From assembly GCF_041449215.1 (NCBI RefSeq), contig NZ_JBGNFV010000001.1:2455001-2519000 (forward strand): a DNA stretch of 64,000 nucleotides, read 5' to 3'. A model generated the notes under the pieces. The model was not told the origin of the DNA. It saw only the letters and a program-made list of their open reading frames with translations, and searched no databases. Below, one piece after another: positions 15,718 to 40,268 of this stretch; positions within the stretch are counted from its first letter, which is position 1; each line of letters starts with the position of its first letter. Source of the DNA: Roseivirga sp. BDSF3-8 (lineage in GTDB: Bacteria > Bacteroidota > Bacteroidia > Cytophagales > Cyclobacteriaceae). The position numbers were made by a program, and so were the translations under genes.

Positions 15718-17247
15718 GTGTCAATAAGCGAAAAGATAGTTTTTAAAGACTACAACCCCAAGCAAATTATGCTTTTACCTCCGAGCCTGGAGGAGTTAAT
15801 AGAGGCAGACCATCCAGTTCGGGTGGTCAACGAAGTGGTCGATCGTCTTGATATTGCCCCTCTATTGACTGGTTATAAGCCTGGCGGTACATCAGTATAT
15901 CATCCAAGGATGCTGCTTAAAATATTGATTTACGGGTATATGAGTAATATCTACTCTACCCGCAAGTTGGAGGCAGCTATTGGTCAAAACGTTCACTTCA
16001 TGTGGTTGGCAGGTATGAACAAGCCTGACCATAACACTATTGCCCGTTTTCGATGCGATCGGTTGAAAGATAGCCTGAAGGTGATCTTTGCTCAGATTGT
16101 AATGTTCTTAGTTGATGAGGGCCTACTGGACTTAAAGACAGTTTACACCGACGGCACCAAGATAGAAGCCCAGGCTAATCGCTACACGTTTGTGTGGGGC
16201 AGGTCTATTAAGACCAATACCGAAAAGATAAGCCAACAGCTTGAAGAGTTGTGGGACTATACCCAGCGGGTGGCAGAAGACGAGTTATATCAGGAAAAGC
16301 CTGATTTTAGCAAAATCGATGCTCGAAAGGTTAGTGATACTATTGATAGGATTGACCAGGCACTCACGGGCAAGAAGATAGCAAAAGGGAAGAGGCAGAA
16401 GCTTACCTATGCACGAAAAAACTGGCCTGGGAAGCTGGCTGAATACCAGCAGAAGCAAGCTATACTGGGACAACGAAACAGCTATTCAAAGACTGACCAC
16501 GATGCAACCTTTATGATGATGAAGGAAGACCATATGCGAAATGGACAGCTCAAGCCGGGCTATAACCTTCAGATCAGCACCTCCAATCAATACTTGGTAA
16601 ACTACACGATCCATCAAAATCCTACCGACACCCTAACGTTACAACCCCATCTTAAGAACTATCAGCAGTTATATAACACCCTGCCTGACACTATATGCGC
16701 TGATGCAGGATATGGTAGCGAAGAGAACTATGACTATCTGAAAGATAAAGTAGAGAAGGCCTATGTAAAGTATAATTACTTCCATAAGGAGCAAACCAGA
16801 AAATGGAAGCAAGACATATCTAAATCTCAGAACCTGCATTACAACGAAGAGCAGGATAAGGTCTATTGCCCGGCAGGCCAGCCAATGGATCATATAGGAA
16901 AGCGAAAAACAAAAACTAAGTCGGGTTATGAACAAACTTATGCACAATATCAGGCCAGAAACTGCCTGGAGTGTCCATTAAGGAGCGGTTGTTTTAAAGC
17001 AAAAGGCAACCGGATAGTTGAGATCAATCATAACCTTAGAACTCACAAGCAAAAAGTGCGGGATATGCTTATGAGTGACCAGGGAATAGCTCATCGCAAG
17101 CAGCGACCGGCAGATGTAGAAACTGTGTTCGCAGCCATCAAACACAACCGGGGCTTCCGCAGATTTATGATGCGGGGAACAGAGAAAGTCGAAATAGAAG
17201 CCGGACTACTGGCTATTGCACATAACCTGCTCAAAAAGGCTTCATAG
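15718..17247 (+). CDS. IS1182 family transposase
   Basis: A 509-residue DDE transposase. The N-terminal region (residues 1-100) has the family's LMLLPPSLEELI segment and LLKILIYGY. The first catalytic Asp is in VYTDGTKIEA near residue 146, the second in CADAGYG near 327, and the Glu near ETVFAAIKHNRGF at about 470. A Cys-rich CLECPLRSGC motif near 420 fits this family. Translation must start at GTG 15,718: an in-frame TGA lies two codons upstream, and the next ATG would remove the conserved N-terminus. All three acidic residues are present. Confidence 0.92.
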   Translation: MSISEKIVFKDYNPKQIMLLPPSLEELIEADHPVRVVNEVVDRLDIAPLLTGYKPGGTSVYHPRMLLKILIYGYMSNIYSTRKLEAAIGQNVHFMWLAGMNKPDHNTIARFRCDRLKDSLKVIFAQIVMFLVDEGLLDLKTVYTDGTKIEAQANRYTFVWGRSIKTNTEKISQQLEELWDYTQRVAEDELYQEKPDFSKIDARKVSDTIDRIDQALTGKKIAKGKRQKLTYARKNWPGKLAEYQQKQAILGQRNSYSKTDHDATFMMMKEDHMRNGQLKPGYNLQISTSNQYLVNYTIHQNPTDTLTLQPHLKNYQQLYNTLPDTICADAGYGSEENYDYLKDKVEKAYVKYNYFHKEQTRKWKQDISKSQNLHYNEEQDKVYCPAGQPMDHIGKRKTKTKSGYEQTYAQYQARNCLECPLRSGCFKAKGNRIVEINHNLRTHKQKVRDMLMSDQGIAHRKQRPADVETVFAAIKHNRGFRRFMMRGTEKVEIEAGLLAIAHNLLKKAS

Positions 17248-17361: not shown

Positions 17362-20300
17362 CTATTTCAGTAACTGAAGCCAACCTGTGCAGGACTCACC
17401 GTTTGGCAGGAGTATTTCAAAATAATAAACGCCCGCCGCCAGGTCGGCCCCGTTCCAGTCATTACCATAATTTTTGGCTTCATGCATTACTTTGCCCCAT
17501 CGGTTACTAATTACTACATCAACCGGCTCCGGGCTAATGATAGTAAAGGTGTCATTTTTACCATCCTTCGCATCCGGGGTAATTACATTGCCCACCCTGA
17601 ATCTTTCTACATTTATCTTGCGGGTAAAGGTTTGCTCACAGATACCATTACGGGTAGTCAGTGTAACGGTATAGGCGCCTGGCTCATCGTATTCATGTTG
17701 TAAAGAAGCACTATCCGCGGAAGTAGTTCCATCACCGAAGTTCCAGTTTAACTCTTCATATATTTCTCCATCAAAAGAGAAGTCCACCGCCATAATGCCT
17801 TCGCACATTGCCGTTCGCTTCATTTCAAAGCCTGTGTCAGGCTGGGGGGTGACGCTAACCATTACAGAGTCAGTAAAGGTACAGCCATTAGCGTCTACCG
17901 CCGTTAGTACATACATAGTCGTTGAGTCCGGCGAGGCAGTCGGGCTGGCTATAGTGGGATCGGAAAGTCCCTCTTCAGGCATCCAACTGTATATATCTGC
18001 CCCCCCTGCCTGCAGTACCGTCTGGTCACCCTGGCAAATGTTCACATCAGCAGGCATGAAAAACTGGCCTTCAAAAACACTGATCACCTTTTGTGCCCGG
18101 CTGGTAATGGCACAGGTTTGTTCGTCATTGATAAGTAAGGAAACGGTATACTGCCCTGCGTTCGGATAAGTGACAGGGGGTGGGTTCTTACCGTTAAAAG
18201 TTTCTCCATTCCCAAAGTCCCAGATAAAGTTCTTTCCGCCTACACTTAGGTTGATAAAATTGACTGTTAAAGGAGCACAGCCTGTTTGAGGTTCCGCTTC
18301 AAAACGAGCATCCAGCGTAGCCAGGTCAAACTTGAAGGCTGCATTGTTGCAGTTAAAGCTGCTGTTAATCCTGGACCAGGCTCCTGCTGTAGTGGGAAAG
18401 TTGTTAGTACCGCCGCAGCCTGCACACACACTTTGGTATACGATGCCCCGCTTGTCAAATCGACTCGTACCACCGTCTACATGGTCATTTTGCTCCTTTC
18501 CTCCGAAGTATGTAGCGTAGAGAAGCCTGTTTGCCTGCGGGCCTAATACCATCAGATAAAAATCGTTATTATCCGTAGTGGACTGAAAAGCGTCTGAAGT
18601 AAGAGGGAGCTGGTCTATTTCACGTCCGTTCAGAACATAGTTCGATACCCTGTTATTGATACCCGGTCCACCCCAGCCACTGATGAAAATGATATCGCAA
18701 TCATTTACCAAAAAGGCTGTGGGTCTTATATCCGGATTAACGGCTCCTGAAGCATTTATCTGACCTAGCGTAGTAGAAAACAGTGTGCTGTCAAGTGCCG
18801 GTGTCAGTTTGTGAAGAAACTGCCCGGCGTTACTGTTCCTGTAGGTAGTTCCCTGAATGGGGTAATTACCTTTTGTTTGTCCCAGTATAAAAATATTATC
18901 ATCGGCGTCCTGATCCAGAAGATAGGCCTGATCATAAGCTGAAGTTCCTAGGTATGTGCCGCCTAGCTGGGTATTAGTGGCCGGGTCAAAGCGGGCTATC
19001 CACCCATCTATGCTTCCGCCATAAAGGCTATCCATACTGCTTAGCGGTATATCGGAACTGCTTGTCCCTCCGGCAGCGTAGATGTACCCGTTCGCATCCG
19101 TACGGATAGCATAAGCCCCATCATGATTGCTTCCACCAAAAAACGTACCCCATTCCAGGTTAGATAAGTCCGGACTCATCTTTACGATAACCCCGTCATA
19201 AGCCCCCGCATGTGCCTTCATAGGCGTGTAACTCCCAAAAAAATCCGCCGATTCTGTAGAGGTAGCTGCATAAATGAAGTCGTTTTCATCTATGTAGATT
19301 TCCCCCCTGAACTCATCACCATAATTTTTTGACAATGGATTGAAGGAACTCATAAGGCAGTCCAGCCCCTGTCCGCCCAGTAGGGTAGAGCCTAACAGTT
19401 CGCTGCCATCATTAGATAGCTTAGCAATGTACATATCCGCTCCCTGGTCGAAGGTAATACCATCTATCACCTCCAGATTAGGGCCGCCCTCAAAGGTGTT
19501 TTTGTATGCACCAGCTGTTGTAGGAAAATCCGGAGAACCTGTAGCTCCCAGTATGACCAGATTGCCTGCATTATCTACGATCAGGCTATGGGGCGTTTCT
19601 GTATTACTTGCGCCCAGGTAAGTCGCATAATCCAGGCTACTGCCCAGGCTGTCATACTTCAGTATGCCAATATCTATACCGCCATTAAAGGAAATATCAT
19701 AAGCACCGATGGTTGAAGGAAAGCCCGGGTCAAACACGATACCGCCGGAATAAAAGTTACTGTTATCGTCATAAGTGGCAGTGAATCCCCAGTTATCTGC
19801 GTTGGAGCCGCTAAATGTAGAGAATATCAGAATAGGATCTATGACCATAGGTAAATCAGGGTTATAGCCTGAGGGAAAGCTGAAGCCGACCTGATTATCA
19901 CTTATCGTAAATCTGCAGCGGATGAATAGCGTGTCAGTACCTGCCACCTGATAGGCTATTGGCCTGGACTCCACCATTCTGTTCACTGATGTTTCAATGA
20001 TCAACTGCCCGCCCGCCAGCTTGACTGAAGAGGCGCCCCTGTATTTCATTTTGATAATGTTGGGATCGGCTCCGGGGGCTATCAGCAAATCATACTTAAG
20101 ATCCTGGGGTATCTCGCCAGTACCCACGCTATAAAACCTGGCACCAATACCCGGATATATTTCAGAGAGGGCCACACGCTTGTATCCTTTTGCTCCTTTA
20201 CCCCAATGAGTAGGATCATTTCCCTTATAGAAATTGAAATTAGCTTTATGTCCATCTTCTCCATTGTATTCCGACAGTTTGGCGCCTTCAAAGGTCATAT

Positions 20301-20592
20301 CAAAGCTATGCATAGGCACCCTGTCCGGATCAGGTAAGCTACTGGCACTGCGCAGGGCGGGTTCCGGCGGGGTAATGTGGCTGTGAAATGTGGCCACCTT
20401 TTCCTGAGAATAAAACCCGTACGTAATGCCTTTATCGGTAAGGTACATGGCACCCCCCGGCAGTTGAGTACGAAAAGCTACACTTCCAGGCCACTGACCC
20501 TTGTTTTCGATAAAAAGCCCGGGTACCTGGCACTGACAGATAGTGGGAATTAATAATAGAGAGATAATGAAAAAGACGAGACGTAGGGTCAT
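17362..20592 (-). CDS. Large secreted protein with SBBP repeats, PKD domains and type B T9SS (gliding-motility) C-terminal domain
   Basis: A 1076-residue protein. A signal peptide covers about residues 1-22 (ending CQC). A DUF7948-like N-terminal region follows (about 25-260, with IENKGQWPGSV). A long run of beta-propeller-like SBBP repeats (about 270-720) shows repeated GG(S/T)D...I/DA patterns. At least one clear PKD domain (near 770-850, NFIN/WDFGNG) and another near 945-1005 (WNFGDGT) are present. The final 75 residues form the CHU_C/type B sorting domain (VITPDAKDGKND ... GVYYFEI ... GWLQL). It is expected to be exported by T9SS and displayed on the surface, perhaps in adhesion. The insertion sequence ends just after the stop without damaging the domain. 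Confidence 0.85.
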   Translation of the reverse strand: MTLRLVFFIISLLLIPTICQCQVPGLFIENKGQWPGSVAFRTQLPGGAMYLTDKGITYGFYSQEKVATFHSHITPPEPALRSASSLPDPDRVPMHSFDMTFEGAKLSEYNGEDGHKANFNFYKGNDPTHWGKGAKGYKRVALSEIYPGIGARFYSVGTGEIPQDLKYDLLIAPGADPNIIKMKYRGASSVKLAGGQLIIETSVNRMVESRPIAYQVAGTDTLFIRCRFTISDNQVGFSFPSGYNPDLPMVIDPILIFSTFSGSNADNWGFTATYDDNSNFYSGGIVFDPGFPSTIGAYDISFNGGIDIGILKYDSLGSSLDYATYLGASNTETPHSLIVDNAGNLVILGATGSPDFPTTAGAYKNTFEGGPNLEVIDGITFDQGADMYIAKLSNDGSELLGSTLLGGQGLDCLMSSFNPLSKNYGDEFRGEIYIDENDFIYAATSTESADFFGSYTPMKAHAGAYDGVIVKMSPDLSNLEWGTFFGGSNHDGAYAIRTDANGYIYAAGGTSSSDIPLSSMDSLYGGSIDGWIARFDPATNTQLGGTYLGTSAYDQAYLLDQDADDNIFILGQTKGNYPIQGTTYRNSNAGQFLHKLTPALDSTLFSTTLGQINASGAVNPDIRPTAFLVNDCDIIFISGWGGPGINNRVSNYVLNGREIDQLPLTSDAFQSTTDNNDFYLMVLGPQANRLLYATYFGGKEQNDHVDGGTSRFDKRGIVYQSVCAGCGGTNNFPTTAGAWSRINSSFNCNNAAFKFDLATLDARFEAEPQTGCAPLTVNFINLSVGGKNFIWDFGNGETFNGKNPPPVTYPNAGQYTVSLLINDEQTCAITSRAQKVISVFEGQFFMPADVNICQGDQTVLQAGGADIYSWMPEEGLSDPTIASPTASPDSTTMYVLTAVDANGCTFTDSVMVSVTPQPDTGFEMKRTAMCEGIMAVDFSFDGEIYEELNWNFGDGTTSADSASLQHEYDEPGAYTVTLTTRNGICEQTFTRKINVERFRVGNVITPDAKDGKNDTFTIISPEPVDVVISNRWGKVMHEAKNYGNDWNGADLAAGVYYFEILLPNGESCTGWLQLLK

Positions 20593-20664: not shown

Positions 20665-20700
20665 AAAAAAGGTTGCCGCTTGATAGCGACAACCTTTTAT
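20665..20700 (-). terminator. Intrinsic terminator ending candidate RNA copy A
   Basis: On the minus strand, AAAGGTTGTCGCT and AGCGGCAACCTTT (one mismatch) pair around a 4-nt loop, followed by a T7 tract. No protein gene lies upstream on that strand before 21,148, so the transcript it ends is non-coding. Confidence 0.8.
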
Positions 20701-20893
20701 TCATCTACTCATTCACTAAACCACGCCGTATGGAATGTATCTTTAAAAAATTACGGAAGCTTGCCTAAGTCCAAAAAGATTTTCGCATTTATTAAAGCGT
20801 ATAGCTTCGTTAAAAAAATATTGCTCTAGGCAGTTTAAAAAATTTAAATGCGAATATGCTGTCAAAAGTGCTTCCGCTTACTCAACCTATTCG
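20665..20893 (-). ncRNA. Candidate structured small RNA, copy A
   Basis: There is no coding frame here, and the minus strand reads as a structured transcript. An outer helix pairs CGGAAGC (complement of 20,870-20,876) with GCUUCCG (20,754-20,760). A nested inner helix pairs UUCGCAUUU (20,846-20,854) with AAAUGCGAA (20,782-20,790), 9 perfect pairs. A possible pseudoknot pairs UGCCUA (20,827-20,832) with UAGGCA (20,762-20,767). Three AUUUUUUAA-type motifs lie between. It ends in a strong terminator (20,665-20,700). A second copy at 39,982-40,171 has the same layout with compensating base changes. Start and end are estimates from the promoter-like box and the terminator. It lies 73 bp ahead of the large T9SS gene on the same strand, so a leader/attenuator role is an alternative. 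Confidence 0.6.
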
Positions 20894-20904
20894 CTCTCTT
20901 TAAT

Positions 20905-20920
20905 ACCAACCCCGTGCCAA
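20905..20920 (-). promoter_or_regulatory. -24/-12-like promoter box of RNA copy A
   Basis: The minus strand reads TTGGCACGGGGTTGGTA. This matches the sigma-54 -24 half (YTGGCACG) fully, but the -12 half has GT instead of GC. The same TGGCACGGG nonamer sits at the equivalent place in copy B. Confidence 0.45.
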
Positions 20921-20972: not shown

Positions 20973-20990
20973 TTTATCATTATGATAAAA
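20973..20990 (-). promoter_or_regulatory. Upstream palindrome of RNA copy A
   Basis: Perfect 17 bp palindrome TTTATCAT-T-ATGATAAA, centred about 63 bp upstream of the -24 GG. It resembles an enhancer-binding-protein site. Confidence 0.5.
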
Positions 20991-24167: not shown

Positions 24168-24278
24168 GCGGATACGGCCTTGGCTATTTTTTAAACTATG
24201 GAAAAGGCTTATATTTAGCACTAACTTTTTGAATTATAACTTTTTAGCGATTCCCTGAAATTTTTTCAACATTGCATT

Positions 24279-25796
24279 ATGGGAACCGACCCTACTGAGG
24301 TAGATTGTATGCCATACGCGTCCGAAAGTAAAAATAAGGACAAAACTTCCTACGATTATAGTGCAGGCTTTATCAGAAGTTGTCCCGATATCCTTATGCA
24401 TCTGAATGAGGATTTGAGGGTGCTTTTTGTAAACGAGGCATTTCAATCCACCTTTCATCTTTCTAATAACGACGTTAAGGGCATGGCTTGGGAAGATACC
24501 CCATTTTCCAGGCAGGAAACCGGTGTGGCTGACAGAGCCGAATTACGCAGGCAACTTACGGCCAATGGTGGCAAGTATGACTTTACCTTTAGCTCCACGT
24601 CCACAGACGGGAGTGAATCCTGTCAGTATCATACCAGGCTATATGCAGAAAACGGAAACAGCAACTCCCTAACCTATTGGGTCGTTGGACGCAATATAGG
24701 AGCGGTTGGTAATAAGGCTAAAACCTACGCGGCTAACTATGACCGCCTGGTGAAAAATTATCCTGACCTGGTTTGTCGATACGATAAAGAGCATCGTATA
24801 ATCTATGCTAATGAGGCTTGCCAGAAGTTTTTTGGTATAGACTCAGAGGAACTTGTAGGAAAAAAGAAGGAAGATCTGGGGCTGGTAAGCGAAGAGGGGC
24901 TGGAGTCATGGAATAAAAAGCTTAAGGCAACCTTTAAAGAAGGGGAGACAGATGACATTACCTTTGAGGTCATATTCAACGGGAAATCCAGGCATTTTCA
25001 TTCAGTAATAGTTCCTGAGAAAGGGTCTGCCGGGTCTGTAGAGCATATCCTTGCGATAACCCGAGAGGTCACCGATCTAAAAAACACCGAATCGCAGCTC
25101 AGAAAAGATAATGAAGACCTGCGTTCGCTCAATACCTATCTTGATAACTTCATATATACCATTGCGCACGACCTGCGTGGCCCTGTGGGTAATTTGAAAA
25201 GCCTTCTGTGGCTGTATAAGCTGGAAAGTGATGACAAAGCCCGGCAGGACATCATGAATAAGCTGGAGGATACTTTCGGCAGACTGGATAACCGGCTTAA
25301 CGGGCTCATTGGCCTTATAGAAAGTATGGCAAACCTTGAAAGTAAGATTGCCACCTGCAAGCTTGAAAACATCATTCGCGATATACAGGCAGATCTGGAG
25401 AACCGTCCGGACTTCACCCCCTATACCATTCACAAGCACCTGGATGTAAAAGAGATTAAATACATCGAGGCCTATATGGTGAGCATACTGTCTAACCTGC
25501 TATCCAATATCATGAAATACCGCGAACCCAGCCGTCCGTTAAGGATCAGGGTAAGCACCTACCGTATGGGAGAGTTCGTCATTCTCGAAGTAGAGGATAA
25601 TGGGATAGGAATAGACCTCGAAAATATCGGAAAAGATCTGTTTAAGCCTTTCAGGCGCTTTACTAAGCAAAGCGAAGGCAAAGGCATAGGCCTCCACATC
25701 ATAAAGACCATGGTAGAGAAAAACGGCGGGCGAATTGAGGTGAACAGTACCGTAGGAGAGGGAACTACCTTTCAGCTTTACCTTAAAGAATACTAA
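24279..25796 (+). CDS. PAS-domain sensor histidine kinase, soluble
   Basis: A 505-residue cytoplasmic kinase without a membrane segment. PAS 1 covers about residues 30-130 and PAS 2 about 155-265. A short coiled coil precedes a HisKA-type dimerisation domain with the phospho-accepting His297 in the motif AHDLRGP. The HATPase_c domain has an N box LSNLLSNIMKY near 405, G1 EDNGIGID near 440 and G2 GKGIGLHI near 468. No response regulator lies beside it, so the partner is elsewhere. Signal input is probably intracellular and unknown. Confidence 0.88.
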   Translation: MGTDPTEVDCMPYASESKNKDKTSYDYSAGFIRSCPDILMHLNEDLRVLFVNEAFQSTFHLSNNDVKGMAWEDTPFSRQETGVADRAELRRQLTANGGKYDFTFSSTSTDGSESCQYHTRLYAENGNSNSLTYWVVGRNIGAVGNKAKTYAANYDRLVKNYPDLVCRYDKEHRIIYANEACQKFFGIDSEELVGKKKEDLGLVSEEGLESWNKKLKATFKEGETDDITFEVIFNGKSRHFHSVIVPEKGSAGSVEHILAITREVTDLKNTESQLRKDNEDLRSLNTYLDNFIYTIAHDLRGPVGNLKSLLWLYKLESDDKARQDIMNKLEDTFGRLDNRLNGLIGLIESMANLESKIATCKLENIIRDIQADLENRPDFTPYTIHKHLDVKEIKYIEAYMVSILSNLLSNIMKYREPSRPLRIRVSTYRMGEFVILEVEDNGIGIDLENIGKDLFKPFRRFTKQSEGKGIGLHIIKTMVEKNGGRIEVNSTVGEGTTFQLYLKEY

Positions 25797-25844: not shown

Positions 25845-27251
25845 ATGTATGCCGTTGTCGATCTGGAGACTACCGGAGGTAGCTGCCGTCATGATAAAAT
25901 CACTGAAGTAGCCATCTATATTACTGATGGTAAGAAGATTGTGAAATCATGGAGCAGTCTTGTCAATCCCGGTTGCCCTATTCCCGCTCATATTACCCGC
26001 ATTACTGGTATTGATAACCACATGGTGGCCGATGCGCCGGCTTTTCATGAGGTGGCCAAGACTATAGTAGAGCTGCTGGAAGGCAGAGTCTTTGTGGCTC
26101 ATAACGTGAACTTTGATTACGGATTCCTGCGGGAATCTTTTGCTGCCCTCGGGTTTCCATTTGATAAGGAAAGGCTCTGTACCGTACAGGCCAGCAGACG
26201 TATACTGCCAGGCCACCGTTCATACAGCCTCGGTAAGCTCTGCCATGCTCTCAAAATTCCATTGTATAACCGTCACCGGGCAGCCGGAGATGCGGAGGCT
26301 ACAGCACTGCTATTGCACCATCTGGTAAGCAATAGCTCACATAATCTGCTTTCTGACTATACGAAAGGGGGTAAGCGTAAAAAAACTACTGCCCGAAAGC
26401 TATTAACCGATCTGCCGGAAGCTACCCTCCGGAAGCTTCCTTCCACCACTGGCGTGTACCAGCTTAAAGATGAAAATGGCGTCATACTGTATATTGGTAA
26501 AAGCACCGATATGCGCCAGCGCGTACTTACGCACCTGGCAGGCAAGGGGGGGCGTAAAGCTGCCGCCATGGCGCGTATGGTGAAGCAAATAGATACCCTG
26601 GAGACCGGCAGCGAACTCGTGGCCCTGCTTCACGAATCCGACCTGATCAAAAAGCATAAACCCTTTTACAATGTTATGCAGAAAAGAGGCGAGTTTGCCA
26701 TTGGTCTGGCCGTGGATGTCCGGATTGATGGTTACATCCGCATGGAACTAAAAAGGCTTAAGGGAAATGAGCAGGTAGTAGCTGCATTTGCTACGGAAGC
26801 CAAGGCTAAAAAGATGCTCACCGCACTGGTGCAGGAGCACAATCTTTGCATGAACCTATGTGGGCTGGAAAAGACGAAAGGTCCCTGTTTTCACCATACA
26901 CTCGGATGGTGTCTCGGGGCATGCTGCGATAAGGAGAAGCCGGATACCTATAATGCCCGGGCTGAGGAGGCGCTCAGGGCTTTTATGATCCCGGCCGAAG
27001 ACATGTACATCGTAGACGAAGGGCGAAGTGCCCGGGAGAGAGCCATCATCAGAATAGAAAATGGCCGCTGTACCGGCTACGGCTTTGCCGATGCCGGTAA
27101 GTTGGACCATTTATCTTATCTCGCAGGCATAGACATGCAGCCTGTGACAGATTGCAGGTACGTACGGCGTGTGATCAATTCTTTTCTAAGGGAAGAAAAG
27201 GTAGAGAGGACCATTCTCTTCAAATCAGATCAGATATCGATCTCCACCTGA
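25845..27251 (+). CDS. DnaQ-like 3'-5' exonuclease fused to a GIY-YIG (UvrC N-terminal type) nuclease domain
   Basis: A 468-residue protein. Residues 1-165 form a DEDDh exonuclease: VDLETTGG motif I, HNVNFDYGFL motif II near 88, and HRAAGDAEAT motif III near 145. Residues about 195-275 form a GIY-YIG domain (GVYQLKDENGVILYIGKS). A Cys-rich segment follows (CxxxCGLEKTKGPCFHHTLGWCLGACC, about residues 330-362), as in UvrC/Cho-related proteins. It is a plausible DNA repair nuclease; the architecture is known in Bacteroidota. The stop overlaps the convergent lysA by 22 bp. Confidence 0.88.
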   Translation: MYAVVDLETTGGSCRHDKITEVAIYITDGKKIVKSWSSLVNPGCPIPAHITRITGIDNHMVADAPAFHEVAKTIVELLEGRVFVAHNVNFDYGFLRESFAALGFPFDKERLCTVQASRRILPGHRSYSLGKLCHALKIPLYNRHRAAGDAEATALLLHHLVSNSSHNLLSDYTKGGKRKKTTARKLLTDLPEATLRKLPSTTGVYQLKDENGVILYIGKSTDMRQRVLTHLAGKGGRKAAAMARMVKQIDTLETGSELVALLHESDLIKKHKPFYNVMQKRGEFAIGLAVDVRIDGYIRMELKRLKGNEQVVAAFATEAKAKKMLTALVQEHNLCMNLCGLEKTKGPCFHHTLGWCLGACCDKEKPDTYNARAEEALRAFMIPAEDMYIVDEGRSARERAIIRIENGRCTGYGFADAGKLDHLSYLAGIDMQPVTDCRYVRRVINSFLREEKVERTILFKSDQISIST

Positions 27252-39283: not shown

Positions 39284-39982
39284 ATGGATAATATCGTTTT
39301 GCCTTTAGGCTCTTTTATAAATATGCTTGCCGTAATAGGGGGGAGCCTGGCCGGTCTGGTATTACATGGTAAATTTCCCGAGCGTTACCGCCGCATAGCT
39401 TTTCAGGCAATAGGCCTATGTACCCTGCTTATCGGGGCACAGATGGCATTCAAGGCAGAGGATATTCTCATTTTGATTATCAGCATGCTTACAGGTGCCT
39501 GGTTAGGTGAGTGGGCCAGGCTCGATGAACGTCTCCGGACACTCGGCGACTACCTTAAGGCCAAGACCAAAAGTAAGGCGGAGTATTTCACTGATGGCCT
39601 GGTAACCGCCTTTCTGCTGTATTGTGCAGGGTCCCTTACCATACTGGGGGCCCTGGAAGAGGGGCTAAATGAGGACCGCAGCCTGCTTTATACCAAATCT
39701 GTACTGGACGGCTTCACCTCCATAGTGCTGGCATCCAGCTATGGAGTAGGTGTACTCGTGTCAGCCTTACCACTGTTTGTATTTCAGGGAGCACTTACCC
39801 TTTCTGCCGGTTTTATGGAGCCGCTATTGCCCGAACAGGTCATTAACCAGATATCAGCTGCTGGGGGGATAATGATTTTAGGGTTAGGGCTAAACCTGTT
39901 GGAAATCAAGGATATAAAGGTTACTAATATGCTGCCTGCACTGGTGATCATTGTAGGGTTGTCACACCTTATTTTGAGATAA
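39284..39982 (+). CDS. DUF554 membrane protein (YdfK-like)
   Basis: A 232-residue protein with about six to seven hydrophobic helices. It shows DUF554 features: an N-terminal GSFINMLAVIGGSLAG segment, GAWLGEWARLDERLRTLG near 75, and FLLYCAGSLTILGALEEGL near 113. Function unknown; some members have been proposed as transporters, but I cannot support a substrate. It starts 19 bp after feoB, so it is probably in the same transcript. The minus-strand terminator of the second small-RNA copy overlaps its last codons. Confidence 0.78.
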   Translation: MDNIVLPLGSFINMLAVIGGSLAGLVLHGKFPERYRRIAFQAIGLCTLLIGAQMAFKAEDILILIISMLTGAWLGEWARLDERLRTLGDYLKAKTKSKAEYFTDGLVTAFLLYCAGSLTILGALEEGLNEDRSLLYTKSVLDGFTSIVLASSYGVGVLVSALPLFVFQGALTLSAGFMEPLLPEQVINQISAAGGIMILGLGLNLLEIKDIKVTNMLPALVIIVGLSHLILR

Positions 39983-40017
39983 AAAAAATAGGGAGGTGCG
40001 ACCTGCACACTCCCTAG
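39982..40017 (-). terminator. Intrinsic terminator ending candidate RNA copy B
   Basis: On the minus strand CTAGGGAGTGTGC and GCACCTCCCTA pair around AGGTC, followed by eight T. The T-tract overlaps the DUF554 stop codon. It works only on the minus strand. Confidence 0.82.
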
Positions 40018-40171
40018 TTCATTCTGAAATAACCGAACTCATACAAAAAATCCGAAGGTTGGTTAACTGCTAAAAAATCTCGCTACCCGGACTATATCCT
40101 GTTAAAAAATAAAAACAGTCAGTTTAAAAAATAAGTAACGATAACGTTTAAAAAATACCTTCGCTATTCGC
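39982..40171 (-). ncRNA. Candidate structured small RNA, copy B
   Basis: The same element as at 20,665-20,893, also on the minus strand. The outer helix pairs CGAAGGU (complement of 40,157-40,163 read as ACCTTCG) with ACCUUCG (40,053-40,059). The nested inner helix pairs UCGUUACUU (40,133-40,141) with GGGUAGCGA (40,080-40,088), allowing G-U pairs. A short pseudoknot-like pairing AACUG / CAGUU (40,120-40,124 with 40,065-40,069) occupies the same place as in copy A. Four AUUUUUUAA motifs and a terminal hairpin are present. Helix sequences differ from copy A yet keep pairing, which supports a selected RNA. The downstream gene is convergent, so this copy cannot be a leader of a protein gene. Confidence 0.6.
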
Positions 40172-40182
40172 CTATACTATTA

Positions 40183-40198
40183 ACACATCCCGTGCCAC
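40183..40198 (-). promoter_or_regulatory. -24/-12-like promoter box of RNA copy B
   Basis: The minus strand reads GTGGCACGGGATGTGTT: TGGCACG matches the sigma-54 -24 half, and the -12 half is again GT rather than GC. It shares TGGCACGGG with copy A. Confidence 0.45.
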
Positions 40199-40252
40199 AA
40201 TTGAAAAACCCCCTTTCAGGCCCATAGGGGGCAATTGCACTCCTCAGGGTCG

Positions 40253-40268
40253 TATCAAAATGATAAAA
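40253..40268 (-). promoter_or_regulatory. Upstream site of RNA copy B
   Basis: TATCA-AAA-TGATA palindrome within TCAAAATGATAAAA, matching 12 of 14 bases of the copy A site. It is centred about 64 bp upstream of the -24 GG, the same spacing as copy A. Confidence 0.5.

Follow-up and report, generated by a model that had tools for sequence, protein, structure and literature searches.

Probable sibling small RNAs with sigma-54-type promoters and repeated U6 motifs in Roseivirga sp. BDSF3-8 and related Cytophagales

Our analyses of the window, i.e., the whole stretch of 64,000 nucleotides from Roseivirga sp. BDSF3-8, indicate that two segments on its minus strand, copies A and B, very probably belong to a family of sibling RNAs driven by sigma-54. 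The more complete reading, in which A and B are siblings under two-component sigma-54 control that titrate an RNA-binding protein, has in our estimate a probability of about 0.5. Comparison between genomes shows the family, its promoter architecture, the U6 motif with its spacing, and an activator gene next to a third copy, C, and near the copies in Nafulsella. Probably this is an undescribed family of regulatory sibling RNAs, in a group of bacteria in which Hfq was not detected. To our knowledge, little has been learnt about post-transcriptional control in Bacteroidota other than Bacteroides. If the reading is true, a csbD-linked two-component system gains an output, and one short repeated motif together with a nearby regulator offers a direct handle on the protein partner or the targets.

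Architecture of copies A and B

A preliminary description had seen in A an RNA with nested helices, short motifs and a strong terminator, and in B its second copy. When the sequence was read again, nested helices, AUUUUUUAA motifs and strong terminators were seen on the minus strand in both, and B shares with A the promoter type, the palindrome, the motifs and the terminator. Their features are as follows.

Copy A
20665-20893 (-): small RNA of 229 nt predicted length, predicted start about 20893, end at the terminator T run
20974-20988 (no strand assigned): palindrome, predicted activator (bEBP) site, TTATCATAATGATAA
21016-21029 (-): second, imperfect activator-like site, TTATCATAATGAGA
20904-20919 (-): sigma-54-type promoter, TGGCACGGGGTTGGTA (TGGCA-N8-G)
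20876-20870 / 20760-20754 (-): helix P1, CGGAAGC / GCTTCCG, enclosing P2
20854-20846 / 20790-20782 (-): helix P2, TTCGCATTT / AAATGCGAA, enclosing U6 motifs 1 and 2
20832-20827 / 20767-20762 (-): possible pseudoknot, TGCCTA / TAGGCA
20835-20843 (-): U6 motif 1, AUUUUUUAAACUG
20810-20819 (-): U6 motif 2, AUUUUUUUAACG, 25 nt after motif 1
20743-20751 (-): U6 motif 3, AUUUUUUAAAGA
20665-20696 (-): terminator, -17.8 kcal/mol

Copy B
39981-40171 (-): small RNA of about 191 nt predicted length, predicted start about 40171
40252-40266 (no strand assigned): palindrome, predicted activator site, TTATCATTTTGATAC
40182-40197 (-): sigma-54-type promoter, TGGCACGGGATGTGTT (TGGCA-N8-G)
40163-40157 / 40059-40053 (-): helix P1, CGAAGGT / ACCTTCG, enclosing P2
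40141-40133 / 40088-40080 (-): helix P2, TCGTTACTT / GGGTAGCGA, enclosing U6 motifs 2 and 3
40148-40156 (-): U6 motif 1, AUUUUUUAAACG
40124-40132 (-): U6 motif 2, AUUUUUUAAACUG, 24 nt after motif 1
40102-40110 (-): U6 motif 3, AUUUUUUAACAG, 22 nt after motif 2
40070-40078 (-): U6 motif 4, AUUUUUUAGCAG
40044-40051 (-): U6 motif 5, AUUUUUUG
39981-40016 (-): terminator, -17.6 kcal/mol

The terminator of A, with its T run, is as strong as had been described. Sigma-54 promoters are marked by a GG that stands a fixed number of bases from a -12 G (TGGCA-N8-G). From the sigma-54-type elements TGGCACGGGGTTGG and TGGCACGGGATGTG of A and B, starts are predicted near 20893 and 40171, that of A being placed 12 nt beyond the -12 G, and the palindromes of both copies begin 69 nt before TGGCA (-69). 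At sequence level, a sigma-54 promoter with upstream activator sites, a trait of the Qrr RNAs, is present. In the 6.1 Mb BDSF3-8 genome, a palindrome followed after 35-65 nt by TGGCAC was found twice, in A and in B, and not at all with the reversed control. The exact palindrome core TTATCATNNTGATA occurs at five places in this genome, and at three of them (A, B and C) it is followed by a sigma-54-type site and a predicted transcript with U6 motifs. The palindromes at loci L051 and L052 were rejected as family members because no motif pair stands behind a promoter. At L051:8976-9145 (G000:C1:1448975 region), the exact palindrome has TGGCACGAAAAGTGAC some 77 nt behind it and, a little further on, a run of nine T; this locus is possibly a further activator target without a U6 motif pair.

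The repeated short motifs of A and B, likewise part of the earlier reading, stand out from their surroundings: ATTTTTTAA was observed 11 times in the window against 1.21 expected occurrences, 5 of the 11 lying within A and B. A logo of 54 sites gives the consensus A-U6-A-A-R-C-U, i.e., AUUUUUUAARCU, of which the RCU was absent from our wide promoter-plus-motif search pattern. In the BDSF3-8 genome, ATTTTTTAAACTG has four matches, namely A, B, C and one apparently coding place, and none with the reversed control; the full motif ATTTTTTAARCT occurs five times in 1.31 Mb, three of these being A, B and C. A full motif, ATTTTTTAAACT, also lies in the window at 24186-24197 (+), 93 nt before the predicted start of a PAS histidine kinase at 24279. 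This kinase (24279-25796) was considered together with its neighbour (25845-27251) as a kinase-activator pair, which was rejected because the neighbour is an exonuclease/GIY-YIG protein.

Helices and covariation

The helices named in the preliminary description are present on the minus strand of A and B, and the distance between the 5' strands of P1 and P2 is 15 nt in both. At the equivalent place, B has a possible pseudoknot (AACTG/CAGTT) that is shorter than that of A. Comparing A with B, 3 of 7 pairs in P1 and 5 of 9 in P2 (8/16 in total) have changed on both sides and still pair, and two further P2 pairs have changed on one side. As the comparison of A with B comprises two sequences only, the covariation is suggestive, not decisive. 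In a four-sequence set, 11 of 500 shuffles reached the covariation score and 82 of 500 the count of doubly changed pairs. When A and B were shuffled 3000 times each, nested helices of 7+9 pairs arose in 2.5% (A) and 1.2% (B) of cases, with thresholds set post hoc, and the whole segments fold only mildly better than shuffled sequence (z -1.62 for A, -2.31 for B). At minimum energy, A folds with a competing 5' hairpin (GCGAAUA/UAUUCGC) instead of P2, and RNAalifold did not recover P1/P2 from the two-row alignment of A and B.

Stems around the motif pairs were commoner in 22 related members than with shuffled flanks (combined Fisher p 0.001). The best members in this test were G024_1, G012_3, G022 and Naf_1, whereas A (0.66), G102_C (0.82) and some others add nothing. 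The nested layout of P1 and P2 is absent as a common trait, the other compiled members having one stem of differing sequence or none that is clear, and nested covarying helices therefore fail as a family signature. Of the proposed new structured RNA family there remains a probable new family without Rfam match, defined by promoter, motif and terminator rather than by its helices. The preliminary description had not included the promoter and palindrome common to A and B, the third copy in the csbD 3'UTR beside a sigma-54 activator gene, or the siblings in other genera.

Relatives in other genomes and the activator locus

By hand, we compiled 23 members (A, B and C included) from 11 genomes of seven genera and one bacterial family: BDSF3-8, G102, G022, G024, G012, G148, G191, G029, G158, G026 and G156. 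The list was chosen by eye, where promoter, motifs and terminator looked right, and is therefore incomplete and biased. Over 2 kb, G158 matches Cesiribacter sp. SM1; over 1.8 kb, G026 matches Nafulsella turpanensis. BDSF3-8 has three siblings and 7 of the 10 other genomes have two to four; sibling pairs stand in tandem in G024 and Nafulsella, and a pair in G029 is oppositely oriented with about 1.4 kb between the two. Leaving aside A, B, C and G102_C, 17 of 19 members have a predicted length of 80-163 nt; G029_1 was called at 208 nt, and G012_2 is without a called terminator.

Across the compiled members, the recurring elements are a sigma-54-type promoter, U6 motifs and a terminator, TGGCA-N8-G being present in all 23, for most of which the search required it. 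Members mostly carry two to four motifs; G012_3 and G191_2 each have one exact motif and one U6C variant. Two motifs could be measured in 22 members; the first two are 22-26 nt apart in 16 of these and 12, 15, 15, 16, 45 and 165 nt apart in the remaining ones, where spacing was free in the wide pattern and limited to about 30 in two other search patterns. In one set of four siblings (L092, L281, L279 and L293), TGAGGCTAGC is kept just before the terminator.

Rfam gave no usable match for A and B at gathering or relaxed thresholds, in line with the earlier statement that no named RNA with this layout was known. At gathering score, only a tRNA was called in the 64-kb window and none of 15 member loci matched; at E<=1, copy A had three weak hits far under their cut-offs and copy B none. 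A phage collection searched with copy A gave no match. We call the family undescribed on the sole basis of literature searches, in which none of the papers listed described this family.

The palindromic core TCAWWWTGA, tried in four variants (AAA, TTT, TAA, TTA), was present in the 250 nt before 12 of the 23 members, at -66 to -131 from TGGCA, compared with a mean of 0.24 and a maximum of 2 in 200 shuffles. The genomes concerned are BDSF3-8, G102, G022, G029, G158, G026 and G156. The core is absent in the other 11 members, i.e., in all of those from G012, G148, G191 and G024. Upstream of G024_1 stands the palindrome TTATCGATTTGATAA, and some other core-less members have candidate palindromes such as GGGGAAGTACTTCCCC, GTGGAAATTTTTCCAC and CTGGGTAATTAATACCCAG, the shuffle control having covered the TCAWWWTGA core. 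Members without the core would presumably be driven by other activators, although G012, G024, G148 and G191 do encode close matches (64-69%) of the BDSF3-8 activator.

This activator is encoded next to copy C, at the following positions.

G000:C1:4072622-4075905: response regulator (activator) and kinase pair, adjoining csbD
G000:C1:4075929: third palindrome, copy C, between the activator/kinase pair and csbD

The activator has receiver, sigma-54 AAA+ and Fis-type HTH domains, and its partner is a HAMP-PAS histidine kinase. It contains GSFTGA, which we take to be a variant of the sigma-54 contact loop. The palindrome of copy C is followed by TGGCACAACTTGTGCA and then by the gene for a 61-residue CsbD protein (Pfam 1.4e-18), whose 3'UTR is copy C, with three U6 motifs and a terminator; the locus is flanked by the regulator/kinase pair and an EamA gene. 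In G102, which belongs to another genus, the gene order regulator, kinase, csbD, EamA, YebC is retained, as are the activator site, the promoter, the U6 motifs and, ahead of the terminator, a block of 30 nt that has one inserted base; the terminator stem differs in its bases from that of copy C. This block, TGTAGATTTTTTCATGTTT(A)ATTTAGGTTCA at L050:8400-8429 with its counterpart at L332, stands in two genera before terminators of different sequence, and it could serve for pairing. In G012, G024, G148 and G191, EamA comes so soon after the kinase that csbD would not fit between them, and csbD had no match there.

Matches to the BDSF3-8 activator at E<=1e-115 were present in 39 of 245 genomes and fall into two classes of roughly 60-75% and 47-54% identity. 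As G022 and G024 carry both classes, the ~50% class may be a paralogous lineage; the activators of Nafulsella, G158 and G029 belong to it. No match to the BDSF3-8 kinase stands beside the activators of this class in G026, G156, G158 and G029. In Nafulsella turpanensis (G026), the predicted starts of two RNAs lie about 170 and 410 nt beyond the end of the activator match, and in a second genome of the genus (G156) that of one RNA lies about 530 nt beyond it, all on the same strand as the activator, which is ~50% identical to that of BDSF3-8. The intervals contain no same-strand frame of at least 40 codons in G026 and one of 55 codons in G156. The HTH residues shared by the activators are weak evidence.

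It is very improbable that A and B are products of chance, picked out by a reader looking for helices in AT-rich DNA between genes. The modest folding z-scores would agree with chance, as would the loose patterns, which are barely above their shifted control, i.e., the promoter pattern with a spacing one base longer. However, a strict descriptor, a TGGCA-N8-G promoter with a motif pair 21-27 nt apart, had A and B as its sole matches in 1.312 Mb of the BDSF3-8 genome and gave one match in ten shuffled replicates together. Promoter and palindrome are common to A and B, copy C is kept in another genus, and in two Nafulsella-genus genomes the RNAs lie near an activator gene. When promoter spacing was scanned in BDSF3-8, N=8 gave two matches, N=6 and N=7 one each, and N=5 and N=9-12 none; the side matches reflect a G at N=7 in A and at N=6 in B. 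Among sampled loci, the strict descriptor was found in 3 of 30 at the correct -24/-12 spacing and in 0 of 30 at the shifted one. The loose promoter-plus-motif pattern, in contrast, was present in 131 of 245 genomes at correct and 124 of 245 at shifted spacing, and being nearly as common at the wrong spacing, it does not allow presence in a genome to be read from it.

ATTTTTTAAACTG alone (99 of 146 genomes) or its doublet (57 of 295) was discarded as a marker, as it occurs in many unrelated places. A pattern search of genome contigs yielded 26 matches, five of them convincing and from three genomes (L252; L261, L264 and L273; L266). Ten of the other 21 look like chance on examination of their sequence, and five of these ten still match the strict descriptor, about as expected from the gap range of the pattern. 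Several palindrome loci were set aside, in L003, L005, L178, L187 and L188 because no U6 RNA was seen in the sequence, and in L175-L177, L181, L182 and L185 on the matched string only. L004/L186 (G024:C78:362601) has a perfect palindrome, TGGCACTGATTTTGCA and a terminated stretch with degenerate U motifs only, and stays outside the 23. L193/L295, L277, L278, L283, L286 and L288-L291 were rejected by eye or had no script call. In L205 and L210 (G331 and G346), a U6 doublet ends what appears by eye to be a conserved frame of about 30 codons, and no correctly spaced sigma-54 site was noticed there.

Possible titration or base pairing, and known systems

In the mechanism that we propose, the csbD-adjacent response regulator, the most probable activator of A and B, would be phosphorylated and bind TTATCAWWWTGATAA, some 55-115 nt before the promoter. 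Sigma-54 RNA polymerase would then transcribe the siblings A and B, each with a number of AUUUUUUAARCU-type sites, frequently at intervals of about 24 nt, with variable stems between them and a terminator at the end. These repeated sites would capture an RNA-binding protein specific for the U6 motif, and the signal would thus release the mRNA targets of the captured protein, as CsrB/RsmZ do with CsrA. Here we infer transcription, the pairing of activator and site, single-stranded motifs, the protein and titration. A candidate partner is the RRM protein encoded in BDSF3-8 (99 residues, RRM_1 1.2e-21); in Bacteroides, the RRM-class protein RbpB binds sRNAs, although the RbpB-bound motif is described as 41 nt long (PMC11697453). 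Hfq (PF17209) was over the cut-off in 0 of 106 genomes, BDSF3-8 included, with one weak sub-cut-off match in G128 and 5 of 14 control genomes positive, and an Hfq sponge was therefore rejected.

Titration as the action of the RNAs falls somewhat short of an even chance in our judgment, and we prefer it to base pairing because what the siblings have conserved is hardly more than a short repeated motif at regular spacing. According to a review, Csr/Rsm siblings have diverged more, likely because their action does not depend on pairing (PMC4211561). Of 941 genes predicted in 1.31 Mb, one has the full motif upstream, the PAS kinase at 24279, so that no set of titrated mRNA targets is visible; as a whole, motif enrichment at gene starts in this 1.31 Mb is not convincing and gives no clear target set for titration or for pairing. 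With more reserve, we may speculate that several sigma-54 activators with differing palindromes feed one pool of AU6AARCU decoys, unrelated to Csr/Rsm, which, in Cytophagales that have no recognisable Hfq, would determine how much of an unrecognised RNA-binding regulator is free, one decoy residing in the 3'UTR of a stress-protein mRNA.

The siblings might instead act by base pairing in the manner of Qrr or FopS, with AUUUUUUAARCU as a tandem seed against AGYUUAAAAAAU in the A-rich, Shine-Dalgarno-free mRNA starts of Bacteroidota, or with the variable parts pairing while U6 docks a chaperone, a reading that we hold to be doubtful yet worth keeping in mind. Sigma-54, a phosphorylated activator and several siblings are the Qrr arrangement (PMC2680268), the RbpB-associated FopS siblings of Bacteroides pair beside the start codon (PMC11697453), and Shine-Dalgarno sequences are absent from Bacteroidetes mRNAs (PMC6847099). 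The antisense GYTTAAAAAA lies upstream of 5 of 941 genes (in three within 30 nt), the sense sequence and the reversed control upstream of one each, but 5 versus 1 is too small a count to weigh. Moreover, the full antisense AGYTTAAAAAAT was found upstream of none of the 941 predicted genes, a U6 seed would pair weakly, and pairing does not need a regular spacing of about 24 nt with unrelated sequence between.

Among known systems, the Csr/Rsm decoys (CsrB/C, RsmY/Z) resemble the proposed titrating siblings in having several copies per genome, a repeated short motif and little else conserved between siblings. Csr/Rsm decoy RNAs are under two-component control (GacS/GacA; cited in PMC4211561), and similar control may apply here, with a receiver-domain activator and a kinase beside C. 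Unlike these decoys, which repeat GGA in loops, the present RNAs repeat AUUUUUUAARCU and have a sigma-54-type promoter. As in luxO-qrr1, where the regulator gene lies near the sRNA gene, a regulator gene is close to one of the RNAs. The Qrr RNAs of Vibrio also have sigma-54 with a phosphorylated response-regulator activator and several siblings (PMC2680268), but they pair with luxR mRNA and require Hfq, for which the genomes searched gave no match over cut-off, and A, B and the 15 member loci have no Rfam match at gathering score. GibS/FopS with RbpB of Bacteroides are likewise a multicopy Bacteroidota sRNA family with an RRM partner and 1 of 14 members derived from a 3'UTR; FopS has canonical sigma-ABfr promoters and a shared R1 seed, was deposited in Rfam according to the paper, and is not linked to U6 repeats in the parts of the paper available to us (PMC11697453). 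In Flavobacterium psychrophilum, also of the Bacteroidota, Rfp18 and other sRNAs are known and sigma-54 promoters of envelope-stress and gliding genes were mapped, whereas a sigma-54-driven U-repeat sRNA family is not described in the accessible parts of that source (PMC9723704).

The preliminary description had left a choice between a free sRNA and a leader for A. It is very unlikely that A is a cis-acting leader of the T9SS-type gene downstream (DUF7948/PKD/CHU_C, 17362-20592). Distance (about 70 bp) and strand would fit, and the downstream protein has a T9SS signal domain; however, A has its own promoter-like site and is closed by a strong terminator with a T run that ends before this gene, which makes a free RNA likelier. 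Furthermore, B heads toward the end of a convergent DUF554 gene, and C is a 3'UTR. RNAs of type III toxin-antitoxin systems also consist of short repeats in a terminated RNA, and repeats that neutralise a protein would be a comparable design for A and B. This we regard as hardly credible: the motifs stand in unequal units, the copies are scattered, and the inspected neighbours of A, B and C (DUF7948/CHU_C, UPF0182, DUF554, a TrkA-type channel, CsbD and EamA) include no known toxin. About 3.4 kb from copy A, at 15718-17247 (+) of the window, lies a DDE transposase gene (PF13751).
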